In this document: positions 7,531-63,636 of the stretch, one piece after another
Layout: every line of letters starts with the position of its first letter
How positions within the stretch are numbered: the stretch's first letter is position 1
Source: Salipiger mangrovisoli
Lineage (GTDB): Bacteria; Pseudomonadota; Alphaproteobacteria; Rhodobacterales; Rhodobacteraceae
Assembly (NCBI RefSeq): GCF_015223355.1
Contig: NZ_JADFFK010000002.1
Coordinates: 1 to 64,000, forward strand
Direction of reading: 5' to 3'
DNA: 64,000 nt
Notes under the pieces: generated by a model
Told to the model about the DNA's origin: nothing
Database searches by the model: none
What the model saw: the letters and a program-made list of their open reading frames with translations, nothing else
Program-made: the position numbers and the translations under genes

Positions 7531-8934
7531 TCAGGCCTCGAGCGCGCGGCGCAGCAGTTCGATGTCATCGGCGATCTGGCTGTCCTGCATGCGCAGTTCC
7601 TCGATCCGCTTCACCCCGTGCATGACCGTGGTGTGGTCGCGTCCGCCAAACCGGCGGCCGATCTCGGGCAGCGAGCGCGCGGTCAGCTGCTTGCACAGGT
7701 ACATGGCCACCTGCCGCGGGCGCGCGAAGTTGCGCACGCGCTTGGGACCGATGAGGTCGCTCAAGCGGATGTTGTAGTGGTCCGCCACCTTTCGCTGGAT
7801 CTCCTCGATCGAGATCTTGCGGTCCGAGGCGCGCAGCACGTCGGCGAGGCAGTCCTGGGTCAGCTCCATGGTGATCGGCTGACCGACCAGCGAGGCGAAG
7901 GCGAAAAGCCGCGTCAGAGCGCCTTCGAGCACGCGCACGTTGGTCGAGATGCGGTGCGCAAGGAACTCGAGGATGCCGTTGTCGAGCTGCAGCGAGGGAT
8001 ATTGCTTGCGGTAGGTGTCGACCTTGGACTGGAGGATGCCGAGGCGCAGCTCGTAATCCGTCGGGTGCAGGTCGACCACAAGGCCGGACTGCAGGCGCGA
8101 GCGGATGCGGTTCTCGAGATCCTTTATCTCGTCCGGCGCGCGGTCGGCCGAGATGACGATCTGCTTGTTCTGGTCGACCAGCGCGTTGAAGGTGTGGAAG
8201 AACTCTTCCTGCGTCGAGTCCTTGCCGGCGATGAACTGCACGTCATCGACCATCAGCACGTCGACCGAGCGGAACAGTTCCTTGAAGTCCATCATGCGAC
8301 GCTCGCGCAGAGCCTGCACGAAGCGGTACATGAACTGTTCCGCCGAAAGGTACAGCACGTTCAGATCGGGGCGGCGGTTGCGCAGCTCCCAGGTGATCGC
8401 GTGCATCAGGTGCGTCTTGCCGAGGCCCACACCGCCGTAAAGGAACAGCGGGTTGAAGGTCACGGTTTCAGCCTCGGCCACGCGGCGCGCGGCGGCATGG
8501 GCCAGTTCGTTCGGCTTGCCGACGATGAAATTGTCGAAGGTAAACCGCGCATCGAGCGGCGCGCTCGGCAGCAGATCCGCCCCCGCCGCCTGGCCGTTTG
8601 CCGCCTGCGCAGGGCTCGGCTGTGCAGCGGCCTGCTCCGGCTGCGCTGCCATCGGGCGCGGGCTCGGACGACCCGCCGCCGGGCGCGGCGCGTTGCTGAC
8701 GCGGAACTGCAGGCGGCGCACCTGCGAGTCCAGCGTGGAGATCTGCGACAGCAGCAGGTCCCCGAAGTTCTGCGACACATAGGTGCCGATAAAATTCGTC
8801 GGTGCCAGGAAAACCGCAACCCCGTCGGCTTCCAGACCTTTGTACTCGAGGGGCTTGATCCAGGTACGGTAGTTGTTTTCCCCGATCGTGCCGCTCAGCC
8901 TGTCTTGCAGCGCGCCCCATTGTTCCTGCGTCAT
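7531..8934 (-). CDS. dnaA: chromosomal replication initiator protein DnaA
   Basis: The 467-residue AAA+ initiator that binds DnaA boxes at oriC and opens the duplex. Domain I covers residues 1-80, and a Pro/Ala/Gln-rich linker (domain II) about 81-125. Walker A GGVGLGKT is at 167-174, Walker B (VLMVDD) near 228-233, and the C-terminal DnaA-box recognition signature [10 protein letters not shown] near 430-439. The start at 8934 has a purine-rich GGAG/GGGGA site upstream. The long upstream region carries many GANTC sites and a 20-bp palindrome, suggesting cell-cycle control. The gene is about 45 kb from the probable oriC, which is usual in alphaproteobacteria. Confidence 0.99.
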
Positions 8935-51548: not shown

Positions 51549-52231
51549 GACCAGAGCGCTTTTTCCCCGAGTTTCTCGACAAAGGCGGCGTGAGCCGCCT
51601 TTTCTTCTTCGGTGATCCGCGACGGCAGCGGTGTCGCGCGCCGTTGCGGACGCCACTCTTCCTCGCCGCCCGCGCTGTTGCGGCCCGAGGACACGGGCGC
51701 CAGCACCAGATCCGGCTGCTTGCCGCCAATCAGTTCAAGATAGACTTCGGCCAGGATCTCGCTGTCGAGCAGCGCCCCGTGCAGCGTCCGGCTGGAGTTG
51801 TCGATGCCGAAGCGACGGCAGAGCGCATCCAGCGAGGCGGGCGAGCCGGGGAACTTCTTGCGCGCGATCATCAGCGTGTCGATGGCGCAATCTTTCGGAA
51901 GTTGTGGTCGGTTCGCCCACTTCAGCTCTGCGTTGAGGAATTTCACGTCGAATGTGGCGTTGTGGATCACCAGCTTGGCGTCGGTGCCGATGAAGGCGAT
52001 GAACTCGTCGACGATCTTGGCGAACACCGGCTTGTCGCGCAGGAAGTCGTCGCCCAGCCCGTGCACCTCGAAGGCTTCCTGCGGCATCGCGCGTTCGGGA
52101 TTGATGTACTGGTGGTAGACCTTGCCCGTCGGCACGTGGTTGTAGAGCTCGACCGCGCCGATCTCGACGATGCGGTCGCCCTGTTCCGGCTCGAAGCCGG
52201 TGGTTTCGGTGTCGAGTACGATCTCACGCAT
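51539..52231 (-). CDS. dnaQ: DNA polymerase III epsilon subunit (proofreading exonuclease)
   Basis: A 230-residue DEDDh 3'-5' exonuclease that proofreads replication. Motifs: ExoI DTETTGF (about residues 7-13), Exo[13 protein letters not shown], Exo[17 protein letters not shown] with the catalytic His. The C-terminal tail is the polymerase-binding region. ATG 52231 is the family start ([12 protein letters not shown]); it overlaps coaE by eight bases. Last gene of maf-aroE-coaE-dnaQ, the conserved left flank of alphaproteobacterial origins. Confidence 0.97.
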
Positions 52232-52814
52232 GGATCCGCCTTTCGATGTCTTCCAGCACATCCTGAACCTGCGCGCGGGCATGGTCCAGCGTGTCCGTCG
52301 TAATCACGTAATCCGCGCGGGCGCATTTCTCGGCGTTCGGCATTTGCCGGGCAAGGATGCGGTCGAGGTCGTCCGCGCTCATCGTGCCGCGGGCCAGAAC
52401 CCGCTCGCGCTGGATCTCTTCGGGGATGGTGACGCAGACCACCGCGTCGAATTCGGCTTCCGAGCCGGTCTCGTAGAGCAGGGGGATGTCGAAGACGCCG
52501 ATCGCCTCGGGGTGCGCCTTGTCGAAGGCCGCGCGGTCGGCCCGCACCAGCGGATGCACGATGGCCTCGATCCGCTTCAGCGCGCCGGGATCCGCCGCGA
52601 TGATCCCGCGCAGAGCCTCACGTGAAACCTCGCCTTCGACGATGGCCTGCGGGAACGCCGCGCCGATCGCCGCCACCGCGGCGCCACCCCTGCCATAGAG
52701 CCGGTGCACCGCCGCGTCAGCGTCCCAGACAGGGCAGCCTGCCTCGGCGAAGAAACCCGCGGTCTGCGACTTGCCCATGCCGATGGAGCCGGTGAGGCCG
52801 AGACGGAAGCGCAT
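52224..52814 (-). CDS. coaE: dephospho-CoA kinase
   Basis: A 196-residue P-loop kinase catalysing the last step of coenzyme A synthesis. The P-loop [11 protein letters not shown] is at residues 6-16, with DADAAVH near 31-37 and the HPLVR segment in the middle. It overlaps aroE by one base and dnaQ by eight. A parS-like sequence (12 of 16 bases) falls inside the gene at 52614-52629. Confidence 0.97.
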
Positions 52815-53644
52815 CAGAGTACCGCGTCGCGGGTCGCCTGATCCACCACAGGGCGCTTGCCGAACCAGCGCTCGAAGCCCGGCACCGCCTGGTGCAGCAG
52901 CATGCCCAGACCATCGACGCAAACGCAGCCCATCTCCCGCCCGATGCGCAGAAGCCGGGTTTCCAGCGGCGTGTAGACGATGTCGGTCACCAGCGTGCCC
53001 GGACGCAGCCCGTCCAGCGGCACCCGCAGTTCGGGCTTTCCGACCATGCCGAGCGAGCTGGTGTTGACCACCGTGTTCGCCTCTTCCAGCAGATTGCCCG
53101 CATGCACCCAGTCGATGACATGCACGCGCTGGCCGAAATCCTCGCGCAGCTTCTCGGCCCGCACGCGGGTGCGGTTGCACAGATAGAGTTTCGGCACCCC
53201 GGCCTCGAGCAGCGCGGTGATCACCGCGCGTGCCGCACCGCCCGCGCCGAGCACCACGGCGGGACCGGCTGCCGCCCGCCACTCCGGCGCATTCTGCTTG
53301 AGGTTCTCGATAAAGCCGTAGCCGTCGGTATTGTCGGCGTAGATGGTGCCGTTCTCGCGGAAGGTCAGCGTGTTCGCGGCGCCGATCAGCGTCGCGCGGT
53401 CCGACACCACGTCGGCGATCTCCATCACCCGCTCCTTGTGAGGAATGGTGATGTTCACCCCGACGAAGCCGATCTGAGGCAGCAGCCGCAGCGTCTCCTG
53501 CAGCTTGGCCGTCGGCACGTCCATCGGGATGTAATGCCCCGGCAGACCATAGGTCTTCAGCCAGTGCCCATGCAGCAGCGGCGAGCGCGAATGCGCTATG
53601 GGCGAGCCGATGACGCCCGCCAGGGGGATCTTTTCGCCACTCAT
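52814..53644 (-). CDS. aroE: shikimate dehydrogenase
   Basis: A 276-residue NADPH-dependent enzyme of the shikimate pathway that reduces 3-dehydroshikimate. The substrate site SRSPLLHG (about residues 19-26), the catalytic Lys in NITIPHKE, the NTDGYGF segment and the Rossmann GAGGAARAV motif are all seen. It overlaps maf by four bases and coaE by one. Confidence 0.97.
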   Translation of the reverse strand: MSGEKIPLAGVIGSPIAHSRSPLLHGHWLKTYGLPGHYIPMDVPTAKLQETLRLLPQIGFVGVNITIPHKERVMEIADVVSDRATLIGAANTLTFRENGTIYADNTDGYGFIENLKQNAPEWRAAAGPAVVLGAGGAARAVITALLEAGVPKLYLCNRTRVRAEKLREDFGQRVHVIDWVHAGNLLEEANTVVNTSSLGMVGKPELRVPLDGLRPGTLVTDIVYTPLETRLLRIGREMGCVCVDGLGMLLHQAVPGFERWFGKRPVVDQATRDAVL

Positions 53645-54240
53645 CCTGCGATGACCCCGCGCACTTCCAGGAACCCCAGAAGCTCCAGCAGGGGCAGGCC
53701 CAGAATGGTGAAATGACTGCCCTCGATGCTTGCGAACAGACGCACGCCTTCCTCCTCCAGCTTGAAGCCGCCCACCGATGTGCGCAGGCTCTCCCAGTTT
53801 CTCTCTATATAGTCGTCGAGATAGGCCTCGGAGAAGGCGCGCATCTTGAGCCGCGCCACGCCGACGTGCCGCCAGACCGGCTCGCCGCCCTCGTAGATCA
53901 CCGCCGCCGAAAGAAGATGCAGCCGCTGGTCCCGCAGCTCCATGAGCTGCACGCGGGCCTCCTCGGGGCTCTTGGGCTTCGAGTAGAGCTTGCCGTTGCA
54001 GCTCAGCACCTGGTCACAGCCCAGCACCAGTGCACCGGGGTTCTTGTCGGAAACCTTGCGCGCCTTGTACTCGGCCAGCGCGTCCGCCACGTCACGCGGC
54101 GGCGCGCCCTCCGCCAGCAGCGAGTCGCGAATCGACGATTCATCGACGCGCGCCACCTCTATTCCAAAGGGAACGCCCGCGGCGCGCAGCAGATCGGCGC
54201 GGATCTGCGAGCCGGAGGCGAGGACGAGCGGAAGACTCAT
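53641..54240 (-). CDS. Maf family nucleotide pyrophosphatase
   Basis: A 199-residue Maf/YhdE/YceF-type nucleotide pyrophosphatase that hydrolyses non-canonical or excess nucleoside triphosphates. Family motifs: LASGSQIRADLLRAAG at residues 8-23, VLGCDQVLSCNGKLYSKP near 72-89 and the later SVGGFKLEEEGV. First gene of the leftward operon that borders the origin. Confidence 0.95.
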   Translation of the reverse strand: MSLPLVLASGSQIRADLLRAAGVPFGIEVARVDESSIRDSLLAEGAPPRDVADALAEYKARKVSDKNPGALVLGCDQVLSCNGKLYSKPKSPEEARVQLMELRDQRLHLLSAAVIYEGGEPVWRHVGVARLKMRAFSEAYLDDYIERNWESLRTSVGGFKLEEEGVRLFASIEGSHFTILGLPLLELLGFLEVRGVIAG

Positions 54241-54780
54241 GGGGATAAACCTGTTCGCAGTCTTGGGTCTTTGTCAGGGGAAGCTTCTGGGGAAAATCGC
54301 CCCCGGTTTCAAGGCTGGGGAAATCTCCTGAGGCTTACGCCGAGTCGTGGTGATTCCTGAGTCTGTGGGTTTTGATAACTTCCCACTGTGGAGAACCGGA
54401 TCCCTTGAGATCTTTCAAAGATCTATCCCCAGCGGGGCTTACACGATTGATAGCCCTTATTTACATGATCCGAAAGGCGATTCCCCCAAAGCCCGCCCGA
54501 CAGATCTCCGCAGATCTATCCACAGAGAGATCCGCCGTGGACAGAGCTCCGTGAAACATTTGATCCACCGGACTCGGGTTACCCTTAACCAAAATCATCT
54601 CTTCTTTTTCTTTCTAAATTTTTTTCAGAGAGCGGGCCGGCCCCCGGTGTCCGGCCAGGAATTGACTTCGAGGGGGGGAGGGGATAGGCATCTTCTCAAC
54701 ACCTGTTCTGGTGGGACCTTCCCGAAAGACACACGCAGAAATCTGCGAAAGCGACGGCCGAACGCGGCCCGGAGGAATGC
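54241..54780. other. probable chromosomal origin of replication (oriC)
   Basis: This 540-base gap separates leftward maf from rightward rho, the point where gene orientation switches on both sides. DnaA-box-like sites, each one base off TTWTNCACA, are at 54387-54395 (minus), 54457-54465 and 54516-54524 (plus), with weaker ones nearby. An AT-rich tract (54585-54626, with C/T and T runs) suits duplex unwinding. Five GANTC sites start at 54342, 54352, 54359, 54479 and 54571. A 17-base inverted repeat AGATCTTTCAAAGATCT is at 54408-54424, and CAGATCT is repeated at 54501 and 54511. The flanks match the conserved alphaproteobacterial origin neighbourhood. The right end also holds the rho leader. 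Confidence 0.8.
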
Positions 54781-56064
54781 ATGACCGATGCCGATATCGT
54801 CGAGCGTCTGAACCTGTCCGACCTGAAGGCGCAGAGCCCGAAGGATCTCCTGGCAATGGCCGAGGAGCTCGAGATCGAGAACGCCTCGACGATGCGCAAG
54901 GGCGAGATGATGTTCCAGATCCTGCGCGAACGCGCGGACGAGGGCTGGACCATCTTCGGCGACGGCGTGCTCGAGGTGCTGCAGGACGGCTTCGGCTTCC
55001 TGCGCTCGCCCGAGGCGAACTACCTGCCGGGCCCCGATGACATCTATGTCTCGCCCGAGATGATCCGGAAATACTCGCTGCGCACCGGCGACACCATCGA
55101 AGGCGAAATCCGCGCGCCCGACAACGAGGAGCGCTACTTCGCGCTGGTCGACGTCTCGGCGATCAACTTCGAGGATCCGGAACGCGCGCGCCACAAGATC
55201 GCCTTCGACAACCTTACGCCGCTCTATCCCGATGAGCGCCTGAAGATGGAAGTCGAGGATCCGACGATCAAGGACAAGTCGGCCCGGATCATCGACCTGG
55301 TCGCGCCGATCGGCAAGGGACAGCGTTCGCTCATCGTGGCACCGCCGCGGACCGGTAAGACGGTGCTGCTGCAGAACATCGCCAACTCGATCGAGAAGAA
55401 CCACCCCGAGTGCTACCTCATCGTTCTGCTGATCGACGAACGTCCCGAGGAAGTCACCGACATGCAGCGCTCGGTGAAGGGCGAGGTTGTCTCCTCGACC
55501 TTCGACGAACCGGCGACCCGTCACGTGGCCGTGTCGGAAATGGTCATCGAGAAAGCCAAGCGCCTCGTCGAACATAAACGAGATGTTGTGATTCTTCTCG
55601 ACTCGATCACAAGACTTGGTAGGGCGTTCAACACCGTCGTGCCGTCGTCGGGCAAGGTTCTGACCGGTGGTGTCGATGCGAACGCTCTGCAGCGTCCGAA
55701 GCGCTTCTTCGGCGCGGCGCGGAACATCGAAGAGGGCGGCTCGCTCACCATCATCGCCACCGCGCTGATCGACACCGGCTCGCGCATGGACGAAGTCATC
55801 TTCGAAGAATTCAAGGGTACCGGTAACTCGGAAATCGTGCTCGACCGCAAGGTCGCCGACAAGCGCGTCTTCCCGGCGATCGACATCCTCAAGTCGGGCA
55901 CCCGGAAAGAGGATCTGCTCACCGACAAGGTCGACCTGCAGAAGACCTTCGTCCTGCGCCGGATCCTCAACCCGATGGGCACGACCGACGCGGTCGAGTT
56001 CCTGCTGTCGAAGCTCAAGCAGACCAAGACAAACGGCGAATTCTTCGACTCGATGAACAGCTAA
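54781..56064 (+). CDS. rho: transcription termination factor Rho
   Basis: A 427-residue hexameric RNA helicase that ends transcription at rut sites. The N-terminal RNA-binding domain shows [23 protein letters not shown] (about residues 70-92), Walker A APPRTGKT lies near residue 186, and [12 protein letters not shown] marks the catalytic region. GGAGGAATGC precedes the ATG. First gene to the right of oriC, reading away from it, followed by mnmE. Confidence 0.99.
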
Positions 56065-57375: not shown

Positions 57376-59249
<1,874 letters not shown>

Positions 59250-59253
<4 letters not shown>

Positions 59254-59870
59254 GATCTCTGGACCTTGGAGGCGGGCTCAGTGTTTCACGTGAAACATGC
59301 GACCGCCTCGAGCATTACATGGACCTGCTTCACAAGTGGAACCCGCGCATCAACCTGGTTTCGCCGACCACGCTGGAGGAGGCTTGGACCCGGCATATCG
59401 TTGATTCCGCGCAGGTCTGGAGTATTCCACAGGAATATCCCCAGCATTGGGCGGATCTCGGTGTTGGCGGCGGCTTTCCCGGCCTTGTGGTTGCGATCTT
59501 GCGCGCGGAGTTCGCGCCCGAGATGATCGTTACCCTGGTGGAAAGCGACCAGCGGAAATGTGCTTTCCTGCGGACAGTGCTGCGGGAAACCGGCGTCGAG
59601 GCCAAGGTCGAGGCGCAGCGGATTGAGGAAATTCCGCCGCTTGGCGTGGATTTGCTCAGCGCCCGCGCTCTGGCCTCGCTCGACAAACTTTTGGGCTTTG
59701 CCCAGCGTCACCTGTGCGAGAATGGCACGGCGCTCTTTCCCAAGGGGGCGCAAGCGGAAAAAGAAATCGCGGACGCACGCAAGATGTGGCAGTTTGATCT
59801 GGTACGGCATACAAGTCTTACGGATCCCAACGCGGTTGTCTTGCAAATCGGAGCGCTGACTCATGTCTGA
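59250..59870 (+). CDS. rsmG: 16S rRNA 7-methylguanosine methyltransferase RsmG (GidB)
   Basis: A 206-residue SAM-dependent methyltransferase that makes m7G527 in 16S rRNA. The SAM motif is [17 protein letters not shown] (about residues 67-83), with [19 protein letters not shown] and [13 protein letters not shown] as family motifs. The SVSRET segment near residues 11-16 is encoded by a perfect parS site. Overlaps mnmG by four bases and parA by eight. Confidence 0.98.
59282..59297. other. parS site 2 (perfect)
   Basis: TGTTTCACGTGAAACA occurs again with all 16 positions matching, inside rsmG, where it is read in a different frame from site 1 (giving VSRET). It is 1,905 bases from site 1 and just upstream of parA. 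Confidence 0.95.
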
Positions 59871-60672
59871 TTCCTTCCGGCCCGGCGCGGCCAAGATCGT
59901 TGCCATTGCCAACCAGAAGGGCGGGGTGGGCAAGACCACGACGACGATCAACCTTGGCGCGGCGCTGGCCGAACGCGGGTTGAAGGTGCTGATCGTCGAT
60001 CTCGATCCGCAGGGGAACTCGTCGACCGGTCTGGGTATCGAGCCTGAGGCAAGGGAATATACCGCCTACGAGCTGTTGCTCGAGGATGCGCCGCTGTCGG
60101 ACATGATCCTCGAAACCGAGACGGCGAACCTTAAACTGATCCCGGCGACGGTGGATCTGGCGTCGGCCGACATCGAACTGGTGGCGAACGAGAAGCGGAG
60201 CTTCCTTCTGCATGACGCCCTGCGCCAGGCGGACATGGCGCAATTCGGCTTCGATTACATCCTGATCGACTGCCCGCCCTCGCTGAACCTTCTGACGGTC
60301 AACGCGATGGTCGCGGCGCATTCGATCCTGGTGCCCCTGCAGAGCGAATTTTTCGCTCTGGAGGGTCTGTCGCAGTTGATGCTGACAATCCGTGAGGTCC
60401 GCCAGAGCGCGAACCCGGACCTGCGCATCGAGGGCGTGGTGCTGACCATGTTCGACGCCCGCAACAATCTCTCCCGCATGGTCGAGGAAGACGCGCGCGC
60501 CAACCTTGGCGACCTGGTGTTCACCACGGTGATCCCGCGCAACGTTCGGGTGAGCGAAGCGCCGTCCTATGCGTGTCCCGTGCTGACCTATGACACCAAT
60601 TCCAAGGGCGCGCTGGCTTATCGGGCGCTGGCCGACGAGCTGCTGCGCAACAATGCGCAGATGGCGGCATAA
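59863..60672 (+). CDS. parA: chromosome partitioning ATPase ParA (Soj)
   Basis: A 269-residue deviant-Walker ATPase that binds DNA non-specifically and drives origin segregation with ParB. The motif KGGVGKTT is at residues 19-26, with the signature [14 protein letters not shown] near 46-59 and [12 protein letters not shown] in the middle. It overlaps rsmG by eight bases, with parB 27 bases downstream. Confidence 0.98.
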
Positions 60673-60699
60673 GACCAAATTCGAGACGAGAGGGCAGTT

Positions 60700-61608
60700 A
60701 TGGCAGAGAAACGCGAAATGCGTCGGGGACTCGGGCGGGGTCTGTCGGCCCTGATGTCGGATGTGGATGTGCGCCCGGCCGTGGTGGCCGAGGAAGAGGC
60801 AACACCGCGGACGCCCGATCGGATGATCCCGATCGAGAAGCTGTTCCCGAACAAGGACCAGCCGCGCCGGACCTTCACGTCCGAACAGCTCACCGAACTT
60901 TCGGAATCGATTCGGGCGAAGGGCATTATCCAGCCGATCATCGTGCGTCCCAGGCCCGGTTCGGAAGGGGACTTCGAGATCGTCGCCGGCGAGCGCCGCT
61001 GGCGCGCCGCGCAGATGGCGCAGCTCCACGAGGTGCCGGCGCTCGTCCGCGAGTTCGACGACATCGAAGTGCTCGAAGTTGCGATCATCGAGAACATCCA
61101 GCGCGCGGATCTGAACGCGATCGAAGAAGCGGCAGGCTACAAGCAGCTGATGAACCGCTTCGGGCATACGCAGGAAAAGATTGCCGAAGCGCTCGGCAAG
61201 AGCCGCAGCCACATTGCCAACCTGCTGCGTCTGCTGAACCTGCCGGAGTCGGTACAGACCATGGTGGTCGAAGGCGAGCTGACCGCGGGTCACGCCCGCA
61301 CGCTGATCACCTCGGAGAACCCTGAGGAGCTGGCGAAAGAGATCGTCCGGCGCAAACTTTCGGTCCGCCAGGCCGAGCAGCTTGCCAAACCACAGACACA
61401 GAAAGCTCCGAAACAGGGTCTCAATGGATTTGGCGGGGCGCAGAAGGATGCCGACACGCGCGCGCTGGAGGGAGATCTCTCGGCAGCGCTCGGAATGAAG
61501 GTCGCGATTCAGAATGCGCCGGGCGCCGAGAGCGGAAAGCTGGTCGTGAGCTACGAAAGCTTCGAGGAGCTGGACAAGCTCTGCGCGATCCTCAGCGCTG
61601 CCCGCTAA
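60700..61608 (+). CDS. parB: chromosome partitioning protein ParB (Spo0J)
   Basis: A 302-residue CTPase clamp that loads at parS. The N-terminus RRGLGRGLSALMSD is the ParA-activating peptide. The CTP-binding domain has EIVAGERRWRAAQMAQLHEVPALV (box II, including the GERR motif) and an HTH with SRSHIANLLRLLNLP. GAGGGCAGTT precedes the ATG. Downstream is the palindrome-rich gap. Confidence 0.98.
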   Translation: MAEKREMRRGLGRGLSALMSDVDVRPAVVAEEEATPRTPDRMIPIEKLFPNKDQPRRTFTSEQLTELSESIRAKGIIQPIIVRPRPGSEGDFEIVAGERRWRAAQMAQLHEVPALVREFDDIEVLEVAIIENIQRADLNAIEEAAGYKQLMNRFGHTQEKIAEALGKSRSHIANLLRLLNLPESVQTMVVEGELTAGHARTLITSENPEELAKEIVRRKLSVRQAEQLAKPQTQKAPKQGLNGFGGAQKDADTRALEGDLSAALGMKVAIQNAPGAESGKLVVSYESFEELDKLCAILSAAR

Positions 61609-61610
61609 GG

Positions 61611-61640
61611 GATCTCTCCACAGGATCCTGTGGAGAGATC
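61611..61640. repeat. 30-bp perfect palindrome just after parB
   Basis: Bases 61611-61640 are perfectly self-complementary, centred on GGATCC, with TCCACA (the DnaA-box core) on each arm. It starts three bases past the parB stop. There is no T run after it, so it is not a standard terminator. The outer GATCT and GAGAGATC resemble the oriC segment around 54512-54532. Confidence 0.8.
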
Positions 61641-61694
61641 TCGTTGAGGTGCACATGAGGCAATAGCCGTACCCGGAAGACCGGGCGTTTGTTC

Positions 61695-61725
61695 ACCAGA
61701 TCCGACCGGATCCGACGGATCTGGT
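61695..61725. repeat. inverted repeat with ACCAGATCCG arms
   Basis: ACCAGATCCG (61695-61704) is inverted as CGGATCTGGT (61716-61725). The 15-mer GATCCGACCGGATCC at 61699-61713 recurs exactly at 61803-61817. It is the second member of the palindrome family in this gap. Confidence 0.7.
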
Positions 61726-61733
61726 TCAAATAG

Positions 61734-61764
61734 AGAAGGCCGAGCCCATGTGGCTCGGCCTTCT
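61734..61764 (+). terminator. intrinsic terminator of parAB
   Basis: A perfect 13-bp stem (61734-61746 with 61752-61764) with a 5-base loop is followed by GGTTTT. It lies between convergent parB and hemW. Given its T residues on the plus strand it mainly serves parB. Confidence 0.8.
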
Positions 61765-61796
61765 GGTTTTCCGCGATCATTCTGGGGGCGAGATCT

Positions 61797-61822
61797 CCAC
61801 AGGATCCGACCGGATCCTGTGG
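61797..61822. repeat. inverted repeat with CCACAGGATCCG arms
   Basis: Two perfect 12-bp arms (61797-61808 and 61811-61822) flank AC. It is the 61611-61640 palindrome core opened by a GACCG-type insertion, and contains the 15-mer shared with 61699-61713. The degenerate parS follows four bases later. Confidence 0.75.
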
Positions 61823-61826
61823 GTAA

Positions 61827-61842
61827 CGTTTCACATGAAACG
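61827..61842. other. degenerate parS-like site 3
   Basis: CGTTTCACATGAAACG matches parS at 13 of 16 positions and keeps both GTTTCAC and TGAAAC half sites. It lies between the inverted repeat and the hemW stop. Binding strength is unknown. Confidence 0.55.
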
Positions 61843-61850
61843 GCGAGGGC

Positions 61851-63023
61851 TCAGTTGGTCAGAAGCTCGGAAATGACCCCGTTGAGCACCAGCCGCCCCT
61901 CGGTCGTGGCCCCGATCAGGTCGCGCTCGCGCCAGATCAGGCCAAGGTCCTGAAGCTCGCTCAGCTTGTGGGCGGGCAGGGGCGTCGGTGAGATCTCGGC
62001 AAGACGCGCCAGCGAGATCCCCTCGCTCAGACGCAGACCCATCATGACAAATTCTGTCATGATGTCCTCGGAACCGAGCGGATCGAAAACGCTGTCGCCG
62101 CGACCGGCCTCGGCCTTTTCGATCCAGGCGCCGGGCATTTTCCAGGCCTCGGTGGCATGACGTGTGCCGTTCACCGTGACACGGCCGTGCGCACCGGGAC
62201 CGACGCCGACGTAATCTCCGCCGCGCCAGTAGACGAGATTGTGCCGCGACTGCGCGCCGGCCAAAGCGTGGTTCGACACTTCGTAAGGGGCATAGCCCGC
62301 CTTCGCGGTGATCTCCTGCGTCGCAAGGAACATGTCGGCGGCAAGATCCTCGTCGGGCAGCTTCTTCATCTGGCCGCGCTGCGCGCGCTCCCAGAACATC
62401 GTGCCTTCCTCGATCGTCAGCTGGTAGAGCGACAGGTGGTCGGCAGCGAGATCGAGCGCTTCGCGCAGCTCTGTTTCCCAGCCTTTCAGGGTCTGGTTCT
62501 CGCGCGCGTAGATCAGGTCGAAGTTGACCCGCTCGAAGACCGACTTGGCGGTTTCCAGCGCGACGATCGCCTCATCCACGTCATGCAGTCGCCCGAGGCG
62601 GCGCAGATCGTCCGGCCGCAGGCTCTGAATGCCCATGGAGACCCTGTTGACGCCCGCCTCGCGGAAGCCCTCGAACTTCGAGACCTCGACCGAGCGCGGG
62701 TTCGCCTCCAGCGTGATCTCGATGTCATTGGCCCAGGTCCAATGTTCCTTGGCGGCGTCCAGAACGGCCTGAACCGTCGCCGGCTCCATCAAGGAGGGCG
62801 TGCCGCCGCCGAAATAGATCGAATTGAGGATGCGTCCCGAGGTCAGCGCGCCGTAGCGGCGGACCTCGGAACCGAGTGCGTCTGCCCAGCGGGTCTGGTC
62901 GATCGACCGGACGACATGGCTGTTGAAGTCGCAGTAGGGGCATTTGGCCTCGCAGAAAGGCCAATGCACGTAGAGGCCGAAGCCTCCTTCACGCCAGGTT
63001 TCAGACCCGGACTCAGGCATCAT
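61851..63023 (-). CDS. hemW: HemW-like radical SAM protein
   Basis: A 390-residue radical SAM protein once annotated as oxygen-independent coproporphyrinogen oxidase; HemW proteins bind heme and act in heme trafficking. The iron-sulfur cluster motif CEAKCPYC gives Cys at residues 24, 28 and 31. The start of the domain, YVHWPFCEAKCPYCDF, lacks the further HemN-type features, favouring HemW. Two adjacent ATGs (63023, 63020) are possible starts, overlapping the rdgB stop. Last gene of rph-rdgB-hemW. Confidence 0.92.
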   Translation of the reverse strand: MMPESGSETWREGGFGLYVHWPFCEAKCPYCDFNSHVVRSIDQTRWADALGSEVRRYGALTSGRILNSIYFGGGTPSLMEPATVQAVLDAAKEHWTWANDIEITLEANPRSVEVSKFEGFREAGVNRVSMGIQSLRPDDLRRLGRLHDVDEAIVALETAKSVFERVNFDLIYARENQTLKGWETELREALDLAADHLSLYQLTIEEGTMFWERAQRGQMKKLPDEDLAADMFLATQEITAKAGYAPYEVSNHALAGAQSRHNLVYWRGGDYVGVGPGAHGRVTVNGTRHATEAWKMPGAWIEKAEAGRGDSVFDPLGSEDIMTEFVMMGLRLSEGISLARLAEISPTPLPAHKLSELQDLGLIWRERDLIGATTEGRLVLNGVISELLTN

Positions 63024-63636
63024 CGCGGGCAAAGCAGCCCTGCACGAACTTGGCGAAGGCATCGGCGCGGTGGCTGATGCGGTTCTTTTCGTCGCTCGCC
63101 ATCTCGGCGAAGGTGATCTCATGGCCCTCGGGCTGGAAGATCGGGTCGTAGCCGTGGCCGTTGTCGCCGCGCATCGGCCAGACCACCTGGCCCTCCATCA
63201 CGCCGGGGAAGACGGCATCGGTGCCATCGGGCCAGGCAAGGACGAGCGTGCAGTTGAACCGCGCGGTCCAAGGCTGTGCAGAGCCGGTCTTCAGCAGCGC
63301 GTCGTGGGTCTTGCCCATGGCCATGACGAAGTCCCGACCATTGGGCGTTTCGGCCCAATCGGCGGTGTAGACACCGGGAGCGCCGTCGAGCGCATCGACC
63401 GAGATGCCGCTGTCGTCGGCGAGCGCCGGCAGGCCGGTGGCCTTGGCAGCGGCATGCGCCTTGATGCGGGCGTTCTCGACAAAGGTGGTGCCGGTTTCCG
63501 CAGGCTCGGGAAGGTTCATCTCCTTCGCGCCCACGACCTCGACCCCGTAGGGTGCGAGCAGCTCGGTGATCTCCTCGAGCTTGCCCGCGTTATGGGTCGC
63601 GACGAGCAGCTTCTTGTCGCTGAAGATCCGGCTCAT
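63013..63636 (-). CDS. rdgB: XTP/dITP pyrophosphatase (Ham1/RdgB)
   Basis: A 207-residue enzyme that removes inosine and xanthosine triphosphates from the nucleotide pool. The N-terminal nucleotide-binding segment [11 protein letters not shown] (about residues 13-23), [13 protein letters not shown] and the substrate-site [10 protein letters not shown] and [10 protein letters not shown] are family features. It overlaps hemW and rph. Confidence 0.97.

Follow-up and report, generated by a model that had tools for sequence, protein, structure and literature searches.

RGATCY arrays in the parB–hemW gap share a composite code with the likely oriC in one Rhodobacteraceae clade

The convergent parB–hemW gap in a 64,000-nucleotide stretch of Salipiger mangrovisoli DNA (the window; source genome of 6.35 Mb in 95 contigs) carries three arrays of RGATCY boxes accompanied by TCCACA cores, and the same composite code occurs in the likely chromosomal oriC. 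Within the genus sample of 20 genomes, comprising seven clade genomes and 13 others, this code is exclusive to the two loci, restricted to a single clade, and present at both loci together. We assign about an even chance to the reading that the gap is an origin-satellite element, located approximately 7 kb from the likely oriC and predicted to bind proteins through the same code. The first-pass annotation had described a family of palindromes and proposed an origin- or segregation-linked element or a recruited repeat family. The origin link was upheld and is sharpened by the code shared with oriC, whereas the palindrome and repeat-family framing was not.

The gap and the genes relevant to it are located as follows.
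61609..61850, no strand: whole element, the convergent parB–hemW intergenic gap of 242 bp, between the parB stop at 61608 and the hemW stop at 61851
59863..60672, + strand: parA, from the open reading frame list
60700..61608, + strand: parB, from the open reading frame list and relatives
7531..8934, − strand: dnaA, with the same signature stretch in all 20 genus genomes

We take the first of these genes to be parA from family features and synteny, and the genes bordering the gap are presumably parB and hemW. Judged by ParB, the closest named relatives, at 95–97%, are two Rhodobacteraceae, the marine bacterium Alloyangia pacifica and A. mangrovi. An 80-amino-acid minus-strand open reading frame (61592–61834) overlaps the gap; its coding reading is disfavoured by gap lengths of 240, 242, 243, and 252 bp. 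An Rfam search confined to 60600–63200 returned three matches, all below the gathering scores and taken as chance. A search of open-licence papers found none on a parB–hemW element, from which we do not claim its absence from print. In three loci from Ruegeria and other genera (L034, L065, and L019), parB and hemW lie approximately 345–356 bp apart, and these gaps hold what we take, by eye, to be a gene for a small YbaN/DUF454-type membrane protein.

Anatomy and conservation of the gap

Nine RGATCY boxes, grouped in three arrays with spacings of 9–13 bp, lie in the gap, together with a hairpin and two degenerate sites.
61610..61641: array 1 (P1), RGATCY at 61610, 61623, and 61636, with TCCACA at 61617–61622 (+) and 61629–61634 (−), enclosing a 30-bp perfect palindrome
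61698..61722: array 2 (P2), RGATCY at 61698, 61708, and 61717, spaced by 10 + 9 bp, without a DnaA-like core
61734..61764: terminator-like hairpin (inverted repeat I5) with a 13-bp stem followed by GGTTTT and a presumed terminator function
61791..61817: array 3 (P3), RGATCY at 61791, 61802, and 61812, with TCCACA at 61796–61801
61818..61826, − strand: DnaA-box-like TTACCCACA, matching TTATCCACA at 8 of 9 positions
61827..61842, + strand: degenerate parS CGTTTCACATGAAACG, 13 of 16

Shuffled versions of the 242-bp gap contain a mean of 0.86 RGATCY and a maximum of 4 (2000 shuffles), against the nine observed; this density is not due to chance. GATC itself is common in the window, at approximately 10 per kb, and RGATCY accounts for 9 of 10 GATC sites in the gap and 6 of 8 in oriC, compared with 107 of 635 in the whole window. 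Plain GATC enrichment was dropped as a signal in favour of RGATCY, close GATC triples being found elsewhere in all 21 origin regions.

All three arrays are present in 7 of 7 clade genomes (G000, G005, G009, G010, G011, G014, and G015; the named loci L004, L005, and L007 were not counted again beside G005, G009, and G015). Their gaps measure 240–252 bp and contain 9–10 RGATCY among 9–11 GATC sites each, and a single 8-of-9 DnaA box occurs in the gap of 6 of the 7. The spacing is 13/13 in array 1 (11/13 in two species), 10/9 in array 2 in all seven species despite changing flanks, and 11/10 in array 3 (11/9 in one species and 13/11/11 in two); array 3 consists of four boxes in G011 and G014. In the seven-species alignment, 31 of 36 GATC columns are invariant, and the five variable ones fall in the leading boxes of arrays 1 and 3; there the alignment is displaced by indels, and no box is lost. 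The outer R/Y positions are invariant at 8 of 18 columns, yet remain R and Y within the boxes. Invariance extends to 23 of 26 TCCACA/TGTGG columns and to 25 of 136 columns outside the boxes and the terminator.

The symmetrical features previously noted are indeed present: the 30-bp palindrome at 61611–61640 is perfect, with identical strands; the shared 15-mer GATCCGACCGGATCC lies at 61699–61713 and 61803–61817; and inverted repeats span 61695–61725 (I9) and 61797–61822 (I6). The proposal that the palindrome is the functional unit did not survive comparison across species. The middle-array arms of G014 (L145) are unpaired outside GATC, as judged by eye, and its three boxes at 10/9 remain; the first palindrome of G010 (L142) is imperfect and its RGATCY boxes are retained. 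Each of these two gaps still contains at least nine RGATCY. Because the boxes persist where symmetry is lost, palindromy is not the conserved unit, and the palindromes of the gap appear to be largely a by-product of the RGATCY boxes.

The hairpin at 61734–61764 and its GGTTTT occupy the same position in the seven clade species, with 12 of 31 columns invariant. A consensus terminator scanner did not list this hairpin and listed a weaker candidate at 61672–61685 instead; we infer that the central hairpin is an ordinary convergent-gene terminator. The gap might accordingly be viewed as a set of ordinary convergent-gene terminators or hairpins, or as dispersed palindromic repeats of the REP/BIME kind, a view with which this hairpin, the foldable inverted repeats P1 and P3, and the recurrence of the 16-mer core at two mismatches (1–6 places in 19 of 20 genus genomes) are compatible. 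However, the reversed control yields two-mismatch matches in comparable numbers (1–5 per genome), and the boxes persist in some species whose palindromes are imperfect or gone. The exact 16-mer occurs in the genus only in this gap, in 6 of 7 clade genomes (with one mismatch in G010), and among 394 family genomes, sampled at about one per genus, its single exact match outside the genus lies inside a coding gene of G374. The 15-mer GATCCGACCGGATCC is likewise exact only at its two gap positions in the 6.35-Mb genome, with four further places at one mismatch. Exact cores thus occupy one locus and do not behave as REP/BIME-like dispersed repeats. Pattern searches found neither the dispersed copies expected of a recruited repeat family nor repeats scattered at ordinary gene ends, and we consider this whole class of explanation highly improbable.

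The gap contains no AT-rich unwinding segment in any of the seven species, its lowest 40-bp GC content being 0.42–0.50 compared with 0.15–0.20 in oriC. A second replication origin was rejected on this ground.

The code shared with the likely oriC

The maf–rho intergenic region was examined as the probable origin, with the following features.
54241..54780: likely chromosomal oriC, maf–rho intergenic, with 8-of-9 DnaA boxes, the GC-skew minimum, an AT-rich part, and a length of 513–541 bp in 20 genus genomes
54398..54424: oriC RGATCY array A, boxes at 54398, 54408, and 54419
54502..54533: oriC RGATCY array B, boxes at 54502, 54512, and 54528, with the CTATCCACA DnaA box at 54516–54524

Cumulative GC skew in the window reaches its minimum at 52001–56000, and the maf–rho region has three 8-of-9 DnaA boxes within it or at its border; with the features listed above, this makes it the likely oriC. 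Published oriC placements in Rhodobacteraceae, made with Ori-Finder, draw on GC disparity, DnaA boxes, and proximity to parAB (PMC6699656). The gene dnaA lies approximately 45 kb from the inferred oriC.

The window's oriC contains six RGATCY, a number reached by 1 of 2000 shuffles (mean 1.30). Gap and likely oriC, about 7 kb apart, have in common the composite RGATCT-N-TCCACA; the earlier remark that TCCACA stands beside GATCT as in the origin is borne out by RGATCTNTCCACA, whose only occurrences in the genome are at 54512, 61610, and 61629. The resemblance extends to longer stretches in other species. The oriC array begins with GATCCGACCGGATC, followed by TCT(C/T)CAAGATC, in 4 of 7 clade genomes (G005, G009, G010, and G015). 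This 14-mer is that of arrays 2 and 3 in the window and is absent from the window's own oriC, and the gap arrays of those four genomes differ from it by 1–3 bases. A 21-bp gap stretch of G014 matches oriC at 20 of 21 positions. The best local alignment between gap and oriC outscores every one of 200 shuffles in only three of the seven species, and in one of these, G015, it lies outside the box region; in the remaining four, its score is reached by 1–5 of 200 shuffles.

The composite is almost entirely confined to these sites. Across the 20 genus genomes, RGATCTNTCCACA has 26 matches. The seven clade genomes account for 25, every one of them at oriC or in the gap, and the one other match is in G013. 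The reversed control gave three matches. RGATCY triplets number 54 in the seven clade genomes, 34 of them within oriC or the gap (four in G000 and five in each other clade genome, counted as start positions on the extracted locus sequences), and 62 in the 13 non-clade genomes, none of them in either locus. Seven of the 20 background clade triplets were inspected and all lie within open frames, though such frames are a poor indicator of coding where DNA is GC-rich. Of the window's 11 RGATCY pairs separated by no more than 17 bp, 10 belong to oriC or the gap, as do all four TCCACA that adjoin RGATCY, from a total of 21 TCCACA. The single close pair elsewhere, 7797/7812, lies inside dnaA. Among 80 named ParB loci, RGATCTNTCCACA or the triplet motif was found only in three Alloyangia loci, and both motifs were absent from the 77 other named Rhodobacteraceae loci within flanks of at most 3 kb, a range beyond which oriC lies. 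Since the patterns were defined after viewing the same sequences, all these counts describe genomic specificity and are not independent discovery or prediction. The proposed link to the origin holds in this sense: TCCACA beside GATCT is confined, within the clade, to oriC and the gap.

A tree of the rho–parB stretch (21 genomes, 6854 columns, midpoint root) places the seven element-bearing genomes on one branch with 100/100 support, and G016 on the next branch, also with 100/100. The oriC region holds 6–8 RGATCY in the seven clade genomes, five in G016, and 0–1 in the other 12 genus genomes. The ends of parB and hemW overlap in G016 and G008 and are 3–93 bp apart in 11 other genus genomes. On the simplest reading, oriC accumulated its RGATCY boxes before the gap element was gained. 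G016 (L146), with five RGATCY in oriC and overlapping parB and hemW ends, has the appearance of an intermediate state.

Candidate binding proteins and the parS-like site

The TCCACA cores and the 8-of-9 box make DnaA the most likely binder, and the gap may titrate DnaA, as the first-pass annotation proposed. The gap has a single 8-of-9 match, and the cores of P1 match TTATCCACA at 7 of 9 positions, as counted by eye. DnaA may not bind array 2, which has no DnaA-like core, or these 7-of-9 boxes of P1. The main oriC box is CTATCCACA throughout the clade, TTATCCACA in 8 of the 13 other genus genomes, and TTTTCCACA in G016, G004, and G001; two other genus genomes have no box at one mismatch. The clade form CTATCCACA completes AGATCT, which suggests either a weakened DnaA box, of the sort known from the G-boxes of Caulobacter (PMC4468827), or a second putative protein that needs RGATCY. 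Over 105 compared residues, DnaA has one residue peculiar to the clade (M in ELRMQDS) and a few other variable ones, all outside the signature stretch. A changed DnaA specificity is an unlikely cause, judging from sequence comparison and the identity of that stretch in 20 of 20 genomes.

These features also accommodate, as a tentative alternative, a clade-specific protein other than DnaA, such as an origin-domain or partition-coupling factor, that reads the RGATCY arrays beside parB and in oriC and would bridge the two loci or organise them, with the TCCACA of the gap being incidental. RGATCY is the sole component common to all arrays, array 2, which lacks a DnaA core, retains its 10/9 bp triplet of boxes in all seven species, and the oriC box CTATCCACA completes AGATCT while the DnaA signature stretch is unchanged. 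Against this, the adjoining TCCACA cores are also conserved (23 of 26 columns), it is the composite that forms the locus-exclusive motif, and the nearest outgroup G016 has TTTTCCACA, which leaves the ancestral oriC box uncertain. This alternative overlaps in part with the origin-satellite explanation.

IHF sites, methylases, and SeqA were searched for by consensus or by protein family. The sequence WATCARNNNNTTR, which we take to be the IHF consensus, has no match in the gap at up to one mismatch in the seven species. Dam-type (D12, PF02086) methylases were found in 0 of 7 clade genomes and 2 of 13 other genus genomes, and SeqA (PF03925) exceeded the cut-off in 0 of 20 genus genomes (one match in G016 with E 0.64); E. 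coli controls were positive in both searches. Every genus genome encodes one strong PF01555 protein, presumably CcrM, and G010 is the single clade genome with an additional match, a weaker one. In G008, the strongest CcrM-like PF01555 match, L232 (G008:C1:179006-179674), contains one in-frame TGA, which reflects a broken gene or an assembly error. Methylation and sequestration of GATC at oriC and a second site, in the manner of Dam and SeqA in E. coli, would fit the number of sites, since clade genomes contain 8–11 GATC in oriC and 9–11 in the gap, resembling the 11 of E. coli oriC (PMC5145175). Within the PF02086 and PF01555 families that made up the methylase search, the clade contains neither a Dam-type enzyme nor a clade-wide additional PF01555 protein, SeqA is below the cut-off throughout the genus, and the R/Y flanks are constrained although Dam and SeqA do not need them. 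We regard this mechanism as scarcely probable.

The site at 61827–61842 is the parS-like sequence reported earlier. It matches TGTTTCACGTGAAACA, which we take to be the canonical 16-bp parS, at 13 of 16 positions and does not qualify as a canonical site. Two canonical sites lie in the window.
57377..57392: canonical parS, 16 of 16, at the 5' end of mnmG, inside coding DNA
59282..59297: canonical parS, 16 of 16, at the start of rsmG (gidB), inside coding DNA

Each of the 20 genus genomes has the canonical 14-mer exactly twice, in the window within mnmG and rsmG. Its degenerate counterpart GTTTCACATGAAAC has 10 sites in the 20 genomes, seven of them in the gap (6 of 7 clade genomes, with two in G015 and none in G014). 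For the other three, the distance to parB is approximately 4.4 kb (G006 and G013) or approximately 38 kb (G008). In G006 (G006:C5:1657609) and G013 (G013:C1:456528), the degenerate parS, with a central A, lies beyond parB and outside the parB–hemW gap. Because GTTTCACATGAAAC sites are confined to the vicinity of parB while the canonical core occurs twice per genome, a weak third parS near parB is plausible. The suggested segregation link is made plausible by the occurrence of degenerate parS only at distances of at most 40 kb from parB. The parS-like site is unnecessary for the persistence of the arrays, which G014 keeps without it. The same data bear on an accessory partition cluster, in which the arrays would aid ParB spreading or loading. 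The presence of 7 of 10 GTTTCACATGAAAC sites in the gap and of the other three within 40 kb of parB speaks for such a cluster; the retention of arrays in G014 and the sharing of arrays with oriC, but not with the canonical parS sites, speak against it, and we consider it unlikely.

Proposed role and relation to known systems

Under the origin-satellite explanation, the code would consist of arrays of three to four RGATCY boxes, mostly 9–13 bp apart, with TCCACA half-DnaA-boxes beside or between them. DnaA would most likely occupy the 8-of-9 box as well as the TCCACA cores, with RGATCY read by a putative second protein. The satellite site would be copied soon after initiation, within the parB/parS neighbourhood, and would therefore compete with oriC or report to it: it might titrate or remodel DnaA, or connect oriC with the partition complex. 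The proteins named here and the effect on initiation or segregation are predictions from sequence. A broader idea, which we put forward as possible but doubtful, is a lineage-specific, methylation-independent origin control in which a putative RGATCY reader would physically link the DnaA initiation complex to the ParB/parS partition complex, with oriC acquiring the boxes first, as G016 suggests, and the satellite following later.

The element bears on the open question of how bacteria without SeqA limit initiation and couple it to segregation. It presents a rare code common to oriC and a second site and confined, within the genus, to two loci in genomes of 5–6 Mb. It also offers a testable handle: it can serve as a probe for the reader protein and can be cleanly deleted, and close relatives that lack it provide natural controls.

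The best-known origin-satellite sites are those of E. coli, among them datA, a DnaA-inactivating site that promotes DnaA-ATP hydrolysis or titrates DnaA. In E. coli, datA, DARS1, and DARS2 are non-coding, lie away from oriC at conserved positions, carry clustered DnaA boxes, and influence initiation through their action on DnaA (PMC4585315). The gap is also non-coding and away from oriC, and differs in having one 8-of-9 box together with an RGATCY code shared with an oriC 7 kb off. Both datA and DARS2 use IHF sites (PMC4585315), and the gap has none at up to one mismatch; a datA-like mechanism would lack its IHF site here. The Dam/SeqA system resembles the present case in its many GATC sites in oriC, here accompanied by a second site; in contrast, the clade has no PF02086 Dam or SeqA match, and its motif is the 6-bp RGATCY rather than GATC. 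Caulobacter Cori, with its G-boxes and W-boxes, exemplifies an alphaproteobacterial origin with weak DnaA sites (PMC4468827), and the oriC box of our clade likewise departs from TTATCCACA. Here, however, the departure completes an RGATCY box, and the passages cited mention no second locus beside parB (PMC4468827). Finally, an origin-proximal region of E. coli is dense in DnaA motifs, and motif density near the origin is described as favouring titration (Olivi et al. 2025, PMC12371093). Compared with that region, the element described here is a clade-specific single locus of 242 bp built on a composite motif.
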